Below are positions 1,357-8,958 of a stretch of DNA of 64,000 nucleotides, one piece after another. Within the stretch, counting starts at the first letter, position 1. The number at the start of each line of letters is the position of its first letter. Below the pieces are notes generated by a model, which worked only from the letters and a program-made list of their open reading frames with translations, had not been told where the DNA came from and ran no database searches. The stretch is from Brevibacterium spongiae (lineage in GTDB: Bacteria; Actinomycetota; Actinomycetes; Actinomycetales; Brevibacteriaceae): positions 4,092,001-4,156,000 of the forward strand of contig NZ_CP093443.1 in the NCBI RefSeq assembly GCF_026168515.1, written 5' to 3'. A program made the position numbers and the translations under genes.

Positions 1357-2343
1357 ATGACTGAGATGCAGGACCGTCTGACCTCGTTCGCCCACGGTGG
1401 AGGATGTGCGTGCAAGATCCCGCCGGGTGAGCTCGAGGACGCAGTGCGCGGTCTCGTCGGTCAGTCCGGTCCCGACGTCCTCGTCGGCCTCGATGACGGT
1501 GATGACGCCTCGGCGGTGCGGGTCCGTGATGACCTCGCGGTGCTCTCGACCGCGGACTTCTTCACCCCTGTCGTCGACGATGCCTATGACTGGGGACGGA
1601 TCGCGGCGGCCAATGCGCTCTCCGACATCTACGCGATGGGCGGGACTCCGGTCACGGCGATCAACCTCGTCGGGTGGCCGCGGGAGAAGCTGCCGATGGA
1701 GTTGCTCACCGAGGTGCTGCGCGGCGGTCTCGATGTCGCGGCGCAAGCGAACTGCCCCGTCGCCGGTGGGCATTCGATCGACGATCCCGAACCGAAGTAC
1801 GGCATGGCCGTGACCGGTGTGGCCCACCCGGGTAAGCTCATGCGCAATGATGCCGCCGAGGCGGGTCTTCCCCTGACATTGACCAAGCCGATCGGCGTGG
1901 GCATCCTCAACAACCGGCACAAAGCCACCGGCGACAGCATCGATGAGGCAGTGGCCACGATGACCACGCTCAACGACGAGGCCTCGCGGGCGGCACTGGC
2001 AGCCGGAGTGAAGGCCGCCACCGACGTCACCGGTTTCGGGCTGCTCGGCCACCTGTTCAAGATGGCTCGCGCCTCCGGGGTCGGAGCAGTCATCGACGCA
2101 TCCGCGGTGCCGCGCCTCGGCGGTGTCGACGAAGCGGTTGCCGCCGGTTATGTCTCCGGCGGGACCCGACGGAATCTCGACTGGGTGCGCCCGCACCTCA
2201 CCGCCGATGATTCGGTGACCGAGGACGATCTGCTGCTTCTGGCCGATGCACAGACTTCGGGTGGACTGCTCGTCGTCGGTGAACTGCCCGGCCATCCTGT
2301 CATCGGTGAGATCGTCGTGGGTTCGGGCGTGCACGTGCGGTGA
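1357..2343 (+). CDS. selD: Selenide, water dikinase (selenophosphate synthetase)
   Basis: SelD uses ATP and selenide to make selenophosphate, the selenium donor for Sec-tRNA synthesis. The N-terminus has HGGGCACK with Cys17 and Lys20, the same positions as the catalytic Cys and Lys of the E. coli enzyme. Later segments DDA, DFFTPVVDD, YAMGG, GHSIDD and DVTGFGLLGHL are those of the PurM/AIR-synthase-like fold. Length 328 residues is normal. It uses Cys rather than Sec at position 17. The ATG is supported by the leaderless -10 six bases upstream. Its presence about 3 kb from a selenocysteine formate dehydrogenase makes functional sense; selA, selB and the Sec tRNA are not in the window. Confidence 0.95.
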   Translation: MTEMQDRLTSFAHGGGCACKIPPGELEDAVRGLVGQSGPDVLVGLDDGDDASAVRVRDDLAVLSTADFFTPVVDDAYDWGRIAAANALSDIYAMGGTPVTAINLVGWPREKLPMELLTEVLRGGLDVAAQANCPVAGGHSIDDPEPKYGMAVTGVAHPGKLMRNDAAEAGLPLTLTKPIGVGILNNRHKATGDSIDEAVATMTTLNDEASRAALAAGVKAATDVTGFGLLGHLFKMARASGVGAVIDASAVPRLGGVDEAVAAGYVSGGTRRNLDWVRPHLTADDSVTEDDLLLLADAQTSGGLLVVGELPGHPVIGEIVVGSGVHVR

Positions 2344-2978: not shown

Positions 2979-4250
2979 TTAGCGGCCGGTCGTGATCGAA
3001 TCGTCGGTGATGCCGCGGGCACGGCGTTCCTCGAGGCGAGCGCGCTGCGGTTCGACCACGTGACGCGGGTCCTTCACCGATTCGATGCCGGCCTCAAGCA
3101 TGCCGAAGCGGGTGTACGCAGATGCAGCTGCCAGTGCCGCACCGGAGACCACGGACAGTCCCCGCAGGACGGCGCGAGTCTTCCAACTCCGCTTGCCGAC
3201 ACCAGTTGAACCACCGAGGCTGCTGACAGCGTCTGCAATCGCACCTGCAGAACCACCCGAACCACCAGAATCACGACCCAGCTTCTTCGCGAACACCCGC
3301 GCCCCCACCTCGACGGCGGCGGCACCGACAGCTCCGGCGATGAGCAGCTTCTCAGCTCGGTGAAGTTTGCGGCCGGGTTCGCCGTCCTCCATCGGGTCCA
3401 CCTCGGCCGGATGCATGCGCTGCTTCATCGCTGGCATCGAAAGGACCTCACCGGCGGTGCCAGCGAGCGCGAGCAGTCGCGCCGGTCCGGTCTCTGCCAC
3501 CGGAGCCAATGCCATCACGGCACCACCCGCGGCCATCGAAGCCGAGGACACGAACACGTACGGCAGACCATTGCGACCCGCAGCATTCCACGTGGGAACG
3601 GCCGTCGCGCCCAAAAGCACGGCCGTATATGCGGCCAGTGGGGTCGCGAAGAACGCAGATTCGATTGCCGCCGGCGTCTCCATCGCGTGGAGGACCTTGC
3701 GAAGAGGACCCAGAGGCAGAAGACGCTCGCCCGTGACCCGGTCGAGTTCGATCGCGAAGGTCACGCCCGATCCGACGCCGAAGCCGGAAAGGATCCACGT
3801 GCCCAGACTCATCGGCGACGACACCTTGACCACGCGCATCATATTGAGGAACCGCTCCGGCCGCCCGAGGTCCGCCACCAACGCGGCCCCACCGATGCCG
3901 GTCGCCGCGATCGCAGTCATCCGCGAGGCGATGCGCAGCCCGGGCCGATCGGTCAGCTGCGCACCGAAGCCCAGCAGAGACGAACCGCCGGCGAGCCCGC
4001 CGAGAAAGAGGTACGTTCCGATCTCATCGCCCCAGGGCGGAGCCTTGACGATCGACCGCCCGTAATACGAGCTGAACTCGACGTCTTCGACCATCGGCAT
4101 CTCACGGTTGCCATCGGCACCGCGGTTCTTCCATCCGCCACCACGGCCACCGCCACGGCCGCCCGGTCCGCCGCGACCACCTCGGCGACGTTTCCGACGT
4201 CCGCCTTCGGGCTCGGGTGGGCGGTAGGAATCATATTCGGATGTGCTCAA
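2979..4250 (-). CDS. fdhC: NrfD-family membrane subunit of formate dehydrogenase
   Basis: Polytopic membrane protein of the NrfD/PsrC family, likely anchoring the dehydrogenase and passing electrons to quinone; unlike E. coli FdnI it is not of the cytochrome b type. The start is TTG at 4250, overlapping the fdhB stop as TTGA, with GGGAG six bases upstream; this gives 423 residues. Residues about 15-45 are extraordinarily rich in Arg and Gly (RGG-like), followed by a segment ending in WGDEIGTYLFLGGLAGGSSLLGFGAQ, typical of the first helix of the family, then several more hydrophobic helices. The last ~100 residues are soluble and Gly/Ala-rich. A longer open frame reaching upstream is only the antisense frame of fdhB and is not coding. 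Confidence 0.85.
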   Translation of the reverse strand: MSTSEYDSYRPPEPEGGRRKRRRGGRGGPGGRGGGRGGGWKNRGADGNREMPMVEDVEFSSYYGRSIVKAPPWGDEIGTYLFLGGLAGGSSLLGFGAQLTDRPGLRIASRMTAIAATGIGGAALVADLGRPERFLNMMRVVKVSSPMSLGTWILSGFGVGSGVTFAIELDRVTGERLLPLGPLRKVLHAMETPAAIESAFFATPLAAYTAVLLGATAVPTWNAAGRNGLPYVFVSSASMAAGGAVMALAPVAETGPARLLALAGTAGEVLSMPAMKQRMHPAEVDPMEDGEPGRKLHRAEKLLIAGAVGAAAVEVGARVFAKKLGRDSGGSGGSAGAIADAVSSLGGSTGVGKRSWKTRAVLRGLSVVSGAALAAASAYTRFGMLEAGIESVKDPRHVVEPQRARLEERRARGITDDSITTGR

Positions 4251-5371
4251 CGCTTGCTCCCGAGGAACGCGAGTCCGGCTGCGGCCACCATGCCCAGCGC
4301 CGCGATCCCGGCGTTGGCGTACATCTTCGGCAGGTCCTTCGTCGCCACCCGCGGGTCCGGCGGCAGACCATAGACCTCGGGTTCGTCGAGGAGGAGGAAC
4401 ACGGACCCGGTTCCGCCGACCCCGTCGTTCGGGTTCGCCCCGTACAGGCGCGCTTCGGTCAGTCCCTTCGCATGGAGTTCGGCCACACGCTCGTGTGCCT
4501 GGCTGACCATGTCCTCGCGGTCGCCGAATTTGATCGACTGAGTCGGGCAGGTCTGCGCGCAGGCCGGTTCCTGCCCCTCGACGAGGCGGTCGTAGCAGAG
4601 CGTGCACTTGTTCGCGGTGCCCTTGTCCGGCACGTCCATGTCCGCGGCTTTGCGGTCGTCCCGGTCGGTGGGCGTGTTGATCGTGCCGTCGTCGCGGCGT
4701 TCGATGACGCCGAAGGGGCACCCGGCCACGCAGGTGCCGCAGCCGTTGCACACGTCGTTCTGAACGACGACGGTATCGAATTCGGTGCGGAAGAGCGCAC
4801 CGGTCGGGCACACGTCGAGGCACCCGGCGTGGGTGCAGTGCTTGCACACGTCCGAGGACATCAGCCACCGGAAATCGTCGGTGTCCGGCGGTGTCGTGTC
4901 GACTCCGGTCAGGTCGGTCGGCTCGAGCGCGCCGGGTGCCAGCAGATCGACGCCCAGTTCGGGGGTCGTCGGCAGACCGGCACTCGTGCGACCCTCCGCT
5001 GCCGCGCCGAGGGCACCGTCGAGGGGCTGCGCTCCGGCAGATTCGTCGGTGCGCGGGCGGATCGTCGGCATCCCGAGGTTGACGAGCTTGCGCCCGGATT
5101 CGCGTGCCTTCTCGATCCTGTCGGAGTCCTGTTCGATGAACGCGACGTGCCGCCATGTGTTCGCCCCGAGGCTGCCCGTGTTGTCGTACGAGGATCCCAG
5201 CAGTTCGAAGGTTCCGTCCTGCGGGTTGTTGTTCCACTCTTTGCACGCGACTTCGCAGGCTTTGCAGCCGATGCAGATCGAGGTGTCGGTGAAGAATCCT
5301 TTGCGGCTGTGCGGAGAATCGTGCCAATGCCCGTCCGCGAGCGCGCCCTCATCGATCGTCGGTGTCGACAT
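4247..5371 (-). CDS. fdhB: Formate dehydrogenase iron-sulfur subunit
   Basis: Electron-transfer subunit linking the molybdopterin subunit to the membrane. Four Cys groups are visible: C33/36/39/43, C176/179/184/188, C208/211/214/218 and C256/259/271/275, the pattern of four [4Fe-4S] clusters in FdnH/FdoH-type subunits. An insertion of about 80 residues separates group one from group two, explaining the 374-residue length against about 294 for E. coli FdnH. A single hydrophobic helix ends the protein, as in FdnH. ATG overlaps the fdhA stop (TGATG) and the stop overlaps the fdhC start, so the three genes are translationally coupled. Confidence 0.93.
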   Translation of the reverse strand: MSTPTIDEGALADGHWHDSPHSRKGFFTDTSICIGCKACEVACKEWNNNPQDGTFELLGSSYDNTGSLGANTWRHVAFIEQDSDRIEKARESGRKLVNLGMPTIRPRTDESAGAQPLDGALGAAAEGRTSAGLPTTPELGVDLLAPGALEPTDLTGVDTTPPDTDDFRWLMSSDVCKHCTHAGCLDVCPTGALFRTEFDTVVVQNDVCNGCGTCVAGCPFGVIERRDDGTINTPTDRDDRKAADMDVPDKGTANKCTLCYDRLVEGQEPACAQTCPTQSIKFGDREDMVSQAHERVAELHAKGLTEARLYGANPNDGVGGTGSVFLLLDEPEVYGLPPDPRVATKDLPKMYANAGIAALGMVAAAGLAFLGSKR

Positions 5372-8300
5372 CAGTCGTCCTCCTCCTCGTTCTCCTGCCG
5401 TTCCCGCGCCTTCATCGCACGGTCCTCGGCCGCTTCCGCCTCGATGTCGGTGATCGCCGTGCCGTCGCCGTGCCGGCCCCGGTCGGGGTCGCCGTCGCTC
5501 GGGTCGCCGTCGTCGGCACGGTTGGCCACCGCCGTTTCGACGGGTTCGAGGCCGATCCGACCGGTCCGGTCATCGGCACTGTCGACCGCCCCCGAGGTGG
5601 TCGTACCGTGATCAGATCCCCTCGCCGAGGCGCTCGGGCCGTCCCCGTCGGACGAACCTTCCGGTCCCCCGCCCAAGGTCTTGCCCGGGCTGACGCCGAC
5701 GGCCGAATCGCCGCCGCGGTGGGCGTGCCCACCGGCGCTGACGCCGTGACCGGCGCCGTGGGAGGCCTCGACATCCTCGGCGGGCACTGTGACCTGCTGG
5801 TTGCCGGATTCGGGACTCAGCCCTGCCTCTCGCTGGTACTTCTCGACGAAGTCGACGAGTTCGGGGCCGCGCGGACGCCTGCCGGGAATGATCGTTCCCG
5901 CGACGTACTTGCTGTTCTGGATGTAGACGTTGGGGTCCATCGTCACGCCGAGCAGGTCGTTGGCGGAATCGCCCTCGACCACGGCTCCGGTTCCGCCGAC
6001 GCCCCAGTGGTAGGGCAGTCCGATCTGGTGGACGGTCTTCCCGCCGATCGTCAGCGGAGTCATCCGCCTGGTCACGAGTACGCGTGCCTCGATGGCCGAA
6101 CGCGGGGAGACCAGGGTCGCCCACCCGTAGGGTTCGAGCCCCACTTCGGCAGCGAGTTCCGGAGAGATCTCGCAGAACATCTCCGGCTGCAGCTCGGACA
6201 GGTACGGCAGCCAACGGGACATGCCGCCGGCGGTGTGGTGCTCGGTGAGCCGATAGGTCGTGAACACGTACGGGAACACTTCGGAACCGGGCACTCCGGC
6301 ACCCGGAGCCGACAGGTTGTCCTCGCGGCGCATGACCATTCGGGTCGGACTGTTCTGCTGCGGGTACAACGGGTTCGTCACCGCAGATTCCTGCGGTTCG
6401 TAGTGCGTGGGCAAGGGACCATCGACCATGCCGCTGGGGGCGAACAGCCAGCCCTTGCCGTCGGCCTGCATGATGAAGGGATCATCGCCGTCGAGGTGGC
6501 TGGGCCCGCCGTACGCCTGATCCGACCGGGCGGCCGGTGCACGATCGATCGGGAAGTCGGGCACATCCTTGCCCGTCCACTTCCCGGCTTCCTCGTCCCA
6601 CCACACGAACTTCTTCCGCTCCGACCAGGGAGTTCCGTCCGGTGCGGCCGATGCTCGGTTGTAGAGGATGCGACGGTTCGCCGGCCACGCCCACGCCCAT
6701 TCGGCTGCGGTTTCGTCCTGCTCGGCCCGCGGTTTGCGTCGCGCGGCCATGTTCACGCCGCCGGCGTAGATGCCCGCGTAGATCCAGCAGCCGCCGGCGG
6801 TGGTGCCGTCGTCGGTCATCTGGTTGAAGTTCTCCAGCGGCTCACCGTCGCGTTCGCCGCCGATGAAGTAGCCGTTGATCTCCTTCACGACCGCCTCGGC
6901 GTCGACCTCGCCCTCGTCATCGACCGGGTAGTCCCAGGTCATGTCGAGCAGCGGTCGGTCCCGTGGGTCGTCGGAGTCCTTGAGCTTCTCTCGCACGGCG
7001 TTGCCGAGCTCGTAGAAGAAGTCGAGCTCGCTCTGCGCGTCCCCGGGCGGGTTGACTGCCTTGTTGCGCCATTGCACGAGACGCTGAGTCTGCGTGAAGG
7101 TGCCGGCCTTCTCCGTGTGGTTGGCTGCGGGCAGGAAGAACATCTCGGTGTCGATGTCCTCGGTCTTCAGCTCCCCGGTCTCGATCTCCGGGCCGTCCTT
7201 CCACCAGGTGGCGGATTCGATGAGGCTGAAGTCGCGGACGACCATCCACTTCAGATGGCTCATCGCCATCCGCTGCATCCGGCCGTTCGCCGAACCGACT
7301 GCCGGGTTCTGGCCGAGCAGGAAGTATCCGTCGACGCCGTCGGCGAGCATGCGCACCTGCGTCTGATAGGTGCCGTGCGCCCCGTTGATCCGCGGCAGGT
7401 AGTCAAAGGCGAAGTCGTTCTCCGGCGTCGCCGCATCGCCCCACCACGCCTTGAGCAGGTTCGTCGCGTACGCACGCCCGTTGGCCCAATAGCCTTTGTG
7501 CGTCTCGGGGGTGCCGACGGCCGCGACGTAGTCGTCGAAGGTGTCGTGGATTCCGGCGTTAGGCATCGGCAGGTAGCCCGGCAGCAGGTTGAACAGCGTC
7601 GGAATGTCCGTCGAGCCCTGGATCGTGGCGTGACCGCGCAGCGCCATGATGCCGCCGCCCGGACGACCCATATTGCCCAGCAGGAGCTGGAGGATCGAGG
7701 CGGTGCGGATGAATTGCGCGCCGAGGCTGTGCTGCGTCCACCCGACCGCGTAGGCGAAGCACGTGGTCCGGTCGCGACCCGAGTTCTGCGTCACGGACTC
7801 GTAGAGGTACTCGAAGTCCGCCGGTTTGATGCCGCAGTTCTCGGCCACCATCTCCGGGGTGTAGCGGGAGTAGTGGTGCTTGAGGATCTGCAGCACCGAC
7901 CGCGGGTCGCTCATCGTCTCGTCGCGGACCGGTGCCCCAGCGTCGTCGGTCTGGTACGACCACGACGAGTTGTCATAGGAGTGCGTGTCCGGGTCGAACC
8001 CGGAGAACAGCCCATCGAGGTCCTCGGCGCCGATGAAGTCGTCGCTGATGAGGTTCGTCGCGTTCGTATACGCCCGCACGTACTCCTCGAAGTAGCTGCC
8101 TTCCGAGAGCACTCGGTTGATGAGCGCGCCCAGCAGCACGATGTCGGAGCCCGCCCTGATGGGAACGTGCTTATCGGCGATCGCGGTGGTGCGCGTGAAA
8201 CGAGGATCGACGTGGATGACGCGGGCACCTCGGGCCTTGGCCTCTGTCACCCATTGGAAGCCCACTGGGTGGCACTCGGCCATATTGGATCCCTGGATGA

Positions 8301-8958
8301 TGATGCAGTCCGCATTCGCCATATCCTGGACGGGTTGTGTGGCGCCGCCTCGCCCGAACGAGGTTCCCAGACTGGGAACCGTGGCGGAGTGTCAAATACG
8401 CGCCTGGTTCTCGATCTGTATCGCCCCGGCCGCGGTGTAGAGCTTCTTCGCGAGGTAGTTCTCCTCGTTGTCGATGGTCGCTCCGCCGAGGCTGGCGATG
8501 CCCATCGTCCGCCGCAGCGGATGGCCCTTGTCGTCGAAGTCCTCCCAATGATTGCGGCGGGCTTCGATGAAGCGGTCGGCGATCATGTCGATTGCGGTCG
8601 ACAGTTCGATCTTCGTCCAGTCCTTGGCCTTCGGGGCACGGTAGAGGACATCGGTGACGCGACCGGGGTTGTTGACGAGCTGTTCGCTGGCTGCGCCCTT
8701 CGGGCACAGACGCCCGCGGGAGATCGGTGAATCCGGGTCGCCTTCGATCTGCACGACCTTGTCGTCCTTGACGAAGATCTTCTGTCCGCAGCCGACGGCG
8801 CAGTACGGGCACACGGACTGGACGACCTTGTCGGCCGTCGTTGTGCGTGGGGTGGTGTCTCGGGTCTTCTGGGACACGACTGATTCTCCGCGTCCCGTCT
8901 TATCCGACGTGCGGAACTGCCGGAGTACCGGCCACTCGAGGAAGCTGAACCGAGCCAT
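5371..8958 (-). CDS. fdhA: Selenocysteine-containing formate dehydrogenase, molybdopterin subunit
   Basis: Oxidises formate to CO2 at a Mo/W-bis-MGD centre. The frame is interrupted once, by TGA at 8392-8394 (codon 189); reading on in the same frame gives QARI-Sec-HSATVPSLGTSFGRGG, matching the family's Sec-active-site context, so TGA is taken as Sec. Upstream, C50/C53/C57 and C84 bind the [4Fe-4S] cluster. Total 1195 residues, longer than the about 1015 of E. coli FdnG: the last ~120 residues are a disordered Gly/Asp/His-containing, acidic extension. No twin-arginine signal is present, so the catalytic subunit is probably cytoplasmic. Start ATG 8958 has the leaderless -10 TATGGT six bases upstream. 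A conventional gene caller would split or truncate it at 8392. Confidence 0.92.
8362..8394 (-). promoter_or_regulatory. Sec codon (UGA) and SECIS-like hairpin in fdhA
   Basis: Behind UGA (8394-8392), 11 bases lead into a perfect 7-bp stem GGUUCCC / GGGAACC closed by the loop AGUCU (8380-8362). The loop begins 18 bases after UGA and contains GU, as in the SelB-binding apical loop of the E. coli fdhF element. Distance and shape fit the bacterial SECIS model. The RNA is inside the coding region, as bacterial SECIS elements are. Confidence 0.85.

Follow-up and report, generated by a model that had tools for sequence, protein, structure and literature searches.

A UGA codon very probably read as selenocysteine in a formate dehydrogenase gene of Brevibacterium spongiae

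The UGA codon at 8392–8394 (minus strand) of the Brevibacterium spongiae window is almost certainly a genuine selenocysteine codon, as judged by comparing sequences, and it lies within fdhA, which encodes the catalytic subunit of a formate dehydrogenase bound to the membrane. (The window is the whole stretch of DNA that we analyzed, 64,000 nucleotides at positions 4,092,001–4,156,000 of a 4.16-Mb contig; coordinates below are those of the window.) With the same high confidence, we propose that fdhA, together with genes for FdhB and an NrfD-type FdhC, encodes a membrane-bound, selenium-dependent formate dehydrogenase whose UGA is decoded as selenocysteine by way of SelB and a hairpin in the mRNA.

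The reading frame of fdhA and its neighbors

An open reading frame on the minus strand begins with the ATG at 8958 and reaches the TGA at 8394–8392; the same frame is then open until the stop codon at 5373–5371. Apart from that single TGA, the frame of fdhA (5371..8958) is unbroken, and translating the TGA as selenocysteine (U) gives a protein of 1195 residues with selenocysteine at position 189. The earlier note had claimed that the two flanking frames join into a selenocysteine-containing formate dehydrogenase, and this holds up: the frames are in the same phase, and the joined protein is a full-length match to the NCBIfam model formate_DH_Act (NF041513; 1835 bits, cut-off 1400). It also exceeds the cut-off for TIGR01553 (937.5 bits versus 814) and contains the Pfam domains Molybdop_Fe4S4, Molybdopterin, and Molydop_binding. 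Because NCBIfam already holds this full-length model, the note's expectation that a routine annotation would yield two truncated genes holds only in part.

The best match to FdhA in the PDB is formate dehydrogenase N (FDH-N) from Escherichia coli (1kqf; E = 2.5e-208). Residue 189 lies in the context QARI-U-HSATV (in a longer reading, NQARI-U-HSATVPSLGTSFGRGG), which aligns to NQARV-X-HGPTV of 1kqf. The residue encoded by the UGA falls on the X, which is the selenocysteine of FdnG; we confirmed that codon 196 of E. coli fdnG is UGA. FdhA extends beyond the family model solely by a C-terminal tail of about 150 residues that is rich in Gly, Asp, Ser, and His (5371–5830), and its matches from outside Brevibacterium end near residue 1060.

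Two more genes follow on the same strand, each with its start overlapping the stop of the gene before it. fdhB (4247..5371) encodes the iron-sulfur subunit (beta, ferredoxin-type), which has a hydrophobic stretch at its C-terminus; it has Fer4 domains (Pfam) and matches the FDH-beta model TIGR01582 with 174 bits, which is below the cut-off. fdhC (2979..4250) encodes a membrane subunit of the NrfD/PsrC type (Pfam NrfD, E = 1.5e-17). We found no twin-arginine motif at the N-terminus of FdhA or of the relatives that we read. The NrfD-type membrane subunit and the absence of this motif from FdhA suggest that the active site faces the cytoplasm.

A hairpin downstream of the UGA

Within the coding sequence of fdhA, at 8362..8380 on the minus strand, is a candidate bacterial SECIS element: GGUUCCC (8380–8374), the loop AGUCU, and GGGAACC (8368–8362). 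When folded, it forms a perfect 7-bp stem with an energy of −11.6 kcal/mol. The earlier note had described such a 7-bp hairpin with GU in its loop, which is correct, and had placed its start 18 bases after the UGA, which is not: the stem begins after 11 nt, and 18 nt is the distance to the apical loop.

The earlier note had called the hairpin an ideal SECIS, and it does satisfy the published constraints on bacterial SECIS elements. In the bSECIS model, the loop has 3–9 nt, the upper stem has 4–16 bp, the minimum free energy is −7.5 kcal/mol or lower, the first two positions of the loop include a G that is usually followed by G or U, and the apical loop is 16–37 nt from the UGA (PMC13188914). 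The fdhA hairpin, with 5 nt in its loop, 7 bp in its stem, −11.6 kcal/mol, the G and U of AGUCU, and a distance of 18 nt, fits within all of these limits, and its stem is kept by compensatory changes (see below). At gathering scores, Rfam has no match anywhere in the window, but there is a sub-threshold match to SECIS_3 at 8339–8397 (E = 0.0002, with 27 bits against a gathering score of 63).

A hairpin in one sequence proves little: of the window's 1966 TGAs, counting both strands, 19 (about 1%) have a similar stem and a GU-containing loop. Also, the fold of a 61-nt stretch from this single sequence was not significant when compared to dinucleotide shuffles (z = −1.35). We therefore relied on comparative evidence.

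Across 73 distinct hairpin sequences from fdhA and its relatives, the third bases of codons Val+5 and Gly+9 are UA in 40, CG in 25, GC in 5, and UG in 3; not one sequence has them unpaired. For Pro+6 and Leu+8, the third bases are CG in 68 and GC in 5. All of these changes are synonymous. Third positions from codon −20 to codon +39, which all share one phylogeny, make 1770 pairs; of these, Val+5/Gly+9 ranks first both by mutual information and by excess of Watson-Crick pairs. Over the pairs of the structure, 96.2% of cells are paired versus 86.4% in shuffles, and 29 cells have changes on both sides versus 6 in shuffles (0 of 500 for either count); furthermore, pairing drops sharply when the partner column is shifted by one. 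In the loop, G20, U21, and U23 are the same in all 73 sequences, although these genes are GC-rich, and codon +7 always ends in T, against the genes' preference for G or C. The outermost pair (Thr+4 with codon +10, again at their third bases) forms in only 74% of the distinct sequences, so the well-supported core has six pairs. This pattern indicates selection on the hairpin at the RNA level.

We also considered that a near-cognate tRNA, such as those for Trp or Cys, might read the UGA, with the hairpin serving as a stimulator of read-through or being a by-product of a conserved peptide. The hairpin does overlap the conserved peptide VPSLGT, so its conservation is partly due to the protein sequence. 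However, the covariation at third positions exceeds what the protein constrains, the UGA is at the position of the catalytic selenocysteine of homologs with solved structures, and the presence of selB and tRNA-Sec tracks UGA-containing formate dehydrogenases exactly across 20 genomes (described below). We consider near-cognate read-through to be very improbable.

We built a covariance model from the fdhA SECIS and searched the whole genome. The fdhA site was the sole convincing match (62.9 bits), and we found no second selenoprotein with a SECIS of this type; SECIS elements of differing types could escape this search. We attribute the next match (19.2 bits, E = 0.22) to chance, because its TGA is out of frame inside an unrelated ORF of 428 residues.

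Conservation of the UGA and of the selenocysteine genes

Selenocysteine rather than read-through is also the reading favored by gene content. The earlier note proposed searching for selA, selB, and a selenocysteine tRNA, and all three are present in the genome. The tRNA-Sec has the anticodon UCA (TCA in the DNA) and scores 76.9 bits. Both selA (405 bits) and selB (263 bits) exceed their cut-offs, and SelB has the SelB-specific winged-helix and barrel domains. The three are grouped in a single minus-strand block some 3 kb ahead of the window. The note had also placed selD, for selenophosphate synthetase, near fdhA, and we located it at 1357..2343 on the plus strand (TIGR00476, 387.6 bits, over the cut-off); its active site has Cys, not selenocysteine (GGGCACKIPP). 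Thus, the set of genes for decoding selenocysteine (selA, selB, selC, and selD) is complete in this genome. Between selC and selD is an ORF of 1360 residues whose 3′ end lies at 24–1334 in the window. By eye, its product looks like a metallophosphoesterase; it terminates in a sortase-like LPRTG motif with a membrane anchor.

Relatives of fdhA are found in Brevibacterium (at up to 91% identity), Kocuria, Arthrobacter, Mycobacterium, Sinomonas, Nesterenkonia, and other genera. Within the same family, 53 of 60 genomes have fdhA above the model's cut-off; of 396 genomes spread across the phylum, 78 have a match. Among the 82 matches listed from the phylum, 80 have an internal TGA and two have no stop. 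We fetched 80 homologous loci from genomes with named records. At the position of codon 189 in the 156 homologous loci that we read, 154 have TGA and two have TGC (Cys). (The 154 UGA loci comprise 141 distinct contexts, and some may be one species counted from two collections.) The listed formate dehydrogenase genes of Brevibacterium carry the same UGA.

We also noted two other sequences. One locus (L174, G087:C523) encodes a second selenocysteine-containing formate dehydrogenase that is more similar to FdnG (48% identity over the query stretch), with the motif HGPTV; by eye, it has the loop AGUUU at the same place and a mismatch in the stem. That genome also has the actinobacterial type of formate dehydrogenase. 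The other (G199:C16:17050-17538, within L166) is a formate dehydrogenase stretch with a TAG besides the TGA for selenocysteine.

The two Cys homologs (L161 from genome G097 and L162 from G420) are both from one genus of the same class. At the site of the hairpin they have GTTGTCGGGCTGGGCAGT and GTGGTCGGGCTGGGAAGT, so both the stem and the GU of the loop are lost. Neither of these genomes contains selB or tRNA-Sec. The earlier note had regarded Cys homologs with a real frame break as the pattern that would count against selenocysteine; the homologs show otherwise, with UGA in 154 of 156 loci and with selB, selC, and the hairpin all missing where Cys is encoded.

We picked 20 genomes to span those with a UGA-containing formate dehydrogenase (seven), with a Cys-containing one (two), or with none (eleven). 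tRNA-Sec and a true selB were present in exactly the seven UGA genomes (0/2 with Cys and 0/11 without the enzyme). The tRNA-Sec scores were 72–82 bits in the UGA genomes versus 50 bits or less elsewhere. In two of the seven, selB (235.1 and 231.9 bits) narrowly missed the curated cut-off of 242.25 bits, so we called selB by its score along with its position near tRNA-Sec. fdhA, selB, and tRNA-Sec are close neighbors in all seven of these genomes, no more than about 16 kb apart.

Formally, the window has two ORFs with a stop between them, as expected if a nonsense mutation at UGA 8392 had made fdhA a truncated pseudogene, or if there were a sequencing error. But the same UGA is found in 154/156 homologous loci from many genera and in the listed Brevibacterium genes, and the downstream frame is strongly conserved. 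The conservation of the UGA and the covarying hairpin together refute this explanation, and we give it even less credence than read-through. Reassignment of UGA across the whole genome, for which we found no support, has a negligible probability: TGA terminates 39 of the 43 coding-like ORFs in the window (by a crude filter), which also agrees with the earlier note's remark that UGA is the window's commonest stop codon.

Proposed decoding and comparison with known systems

Given that the UGA most likely encodes selenocysteine, we propose by homology that SelA and SelD make selenocysteine on tRNA-Sec. SelB carrying Sec-tRNA-Sec(UCA) would bind the hairpin that begins 11 nt past the UGA, and selenocysteine would be delivered to the ribosome at the UGA, where release factor 2 would otherwise terminate translation. 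Once incorporated, Sec189 would serve as a ligand of the metal (molybdenum or tungsten) in the bis-MGD cofactor and take part in the oxidation of formate to CO2. The electrons would probably flow to the iron-sulfur subunit FdhB and then to the NrfD-type membrane subunit FdhC.

The only unusual point is the lack of a bulged U, and our main conclusion is unaffected by it. In the folded hairpins of E. coli fdhF and fdnG, a single U bulges from the 5′ arm, while the actinobacterial stem has no bulge and that of the fdhA hairpin is fully paired. E. coli SelB contacts the bulged U of its formate dehydrogenase hairpins. So, the contact of SelB with the bulge-free stem may differ in detail. A bulged U is not among the general constraints of the bSECIS model (PMC13188914). 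More tentatively, it is possible, if rather doubtful, that the SelB proteins of actinobacteria, whose fdhA SECIS stems are fully paired in this way, recognize the G-U of the loop and the stem alone. If so, this SelB and its hairpin would be a candidate orthogonal system for inserting selenocysteine.

The bulge-free stem is thus a small lead on the specificity of SelB. Otherwise, fdhA is a clean and well-supported instance of a recognized exception to the genetic code. It should also make a good benchmark, with its covariation set and two natural Cys variants that lack the hairpin, selB, and tRNA-Sec.

FdhA belongs to a known family and is unremarkable within it. Among bacterial selenoproteins, FdhA with selenocysteine is the most widespread, and it is often encoded beside selABC (PMC1794560, PMC5029168). 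In the titles and abstracts of the literature on Brevibacterium and selenocysteine, we found nothing on this enzyme. Compared to FDH-N of E. coli (FdnGHI, 1kqf), the Brevibacterium enzyme has an alpha subunit of the same family, a selenocysteine that aligns, and an iron-sulfur beta subunit, and the fdnG hairpin has the same loop (AGUCU) at an equal distance from the UGA. In contrast to FdnGHI, the Brevibacterium FdhA has no twin-arginine motif and the membrane subunit is of the NrfD type instead of the FdnI type. E. coli FdhF has selenocysteine in an equivalent context (ARV-U-HGP), and its hairpin has the same 11-nt spacer between UGA and stem and the same position of GU in the loop. However, FdhF is much shorter and is soluble, and the stem of its hairpin has a bulged U.

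The closest described system is from another actinobacterium, Actinomycetospora chiangmaiensis, for which three selenocysteine-containing formate dehydrogenases have been described (PMC7176365). Its removal of formate requires added selenite, and SelA, SelB, SelD, and formate dehydrogenase subunits were detected in its proteome (PMC7176365). The SECIS of its FDH1 was located with bSECISearch (PMC7176365). Like the Brevibacterium system, FDH1 comprises an FdhA (about 1080 amino acids) with selenocysteine at the metal ligand position, an FdhB, and an FdhC, and selA and selB are listed in its cluster (PMC7176365). The Brevibacterium FdhA differs in having a longer C-terminal tail (1195 residues in all), and selD is close to the Brevibacterium cluster. 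Because both selenocysteine-containing formate dehydrogenases and selenium-dependent removal of formate have been published for A. chiangmaiensis (PMC7176365), systems of this type, the way they work, and their occurrence in actinobacteria are already known.
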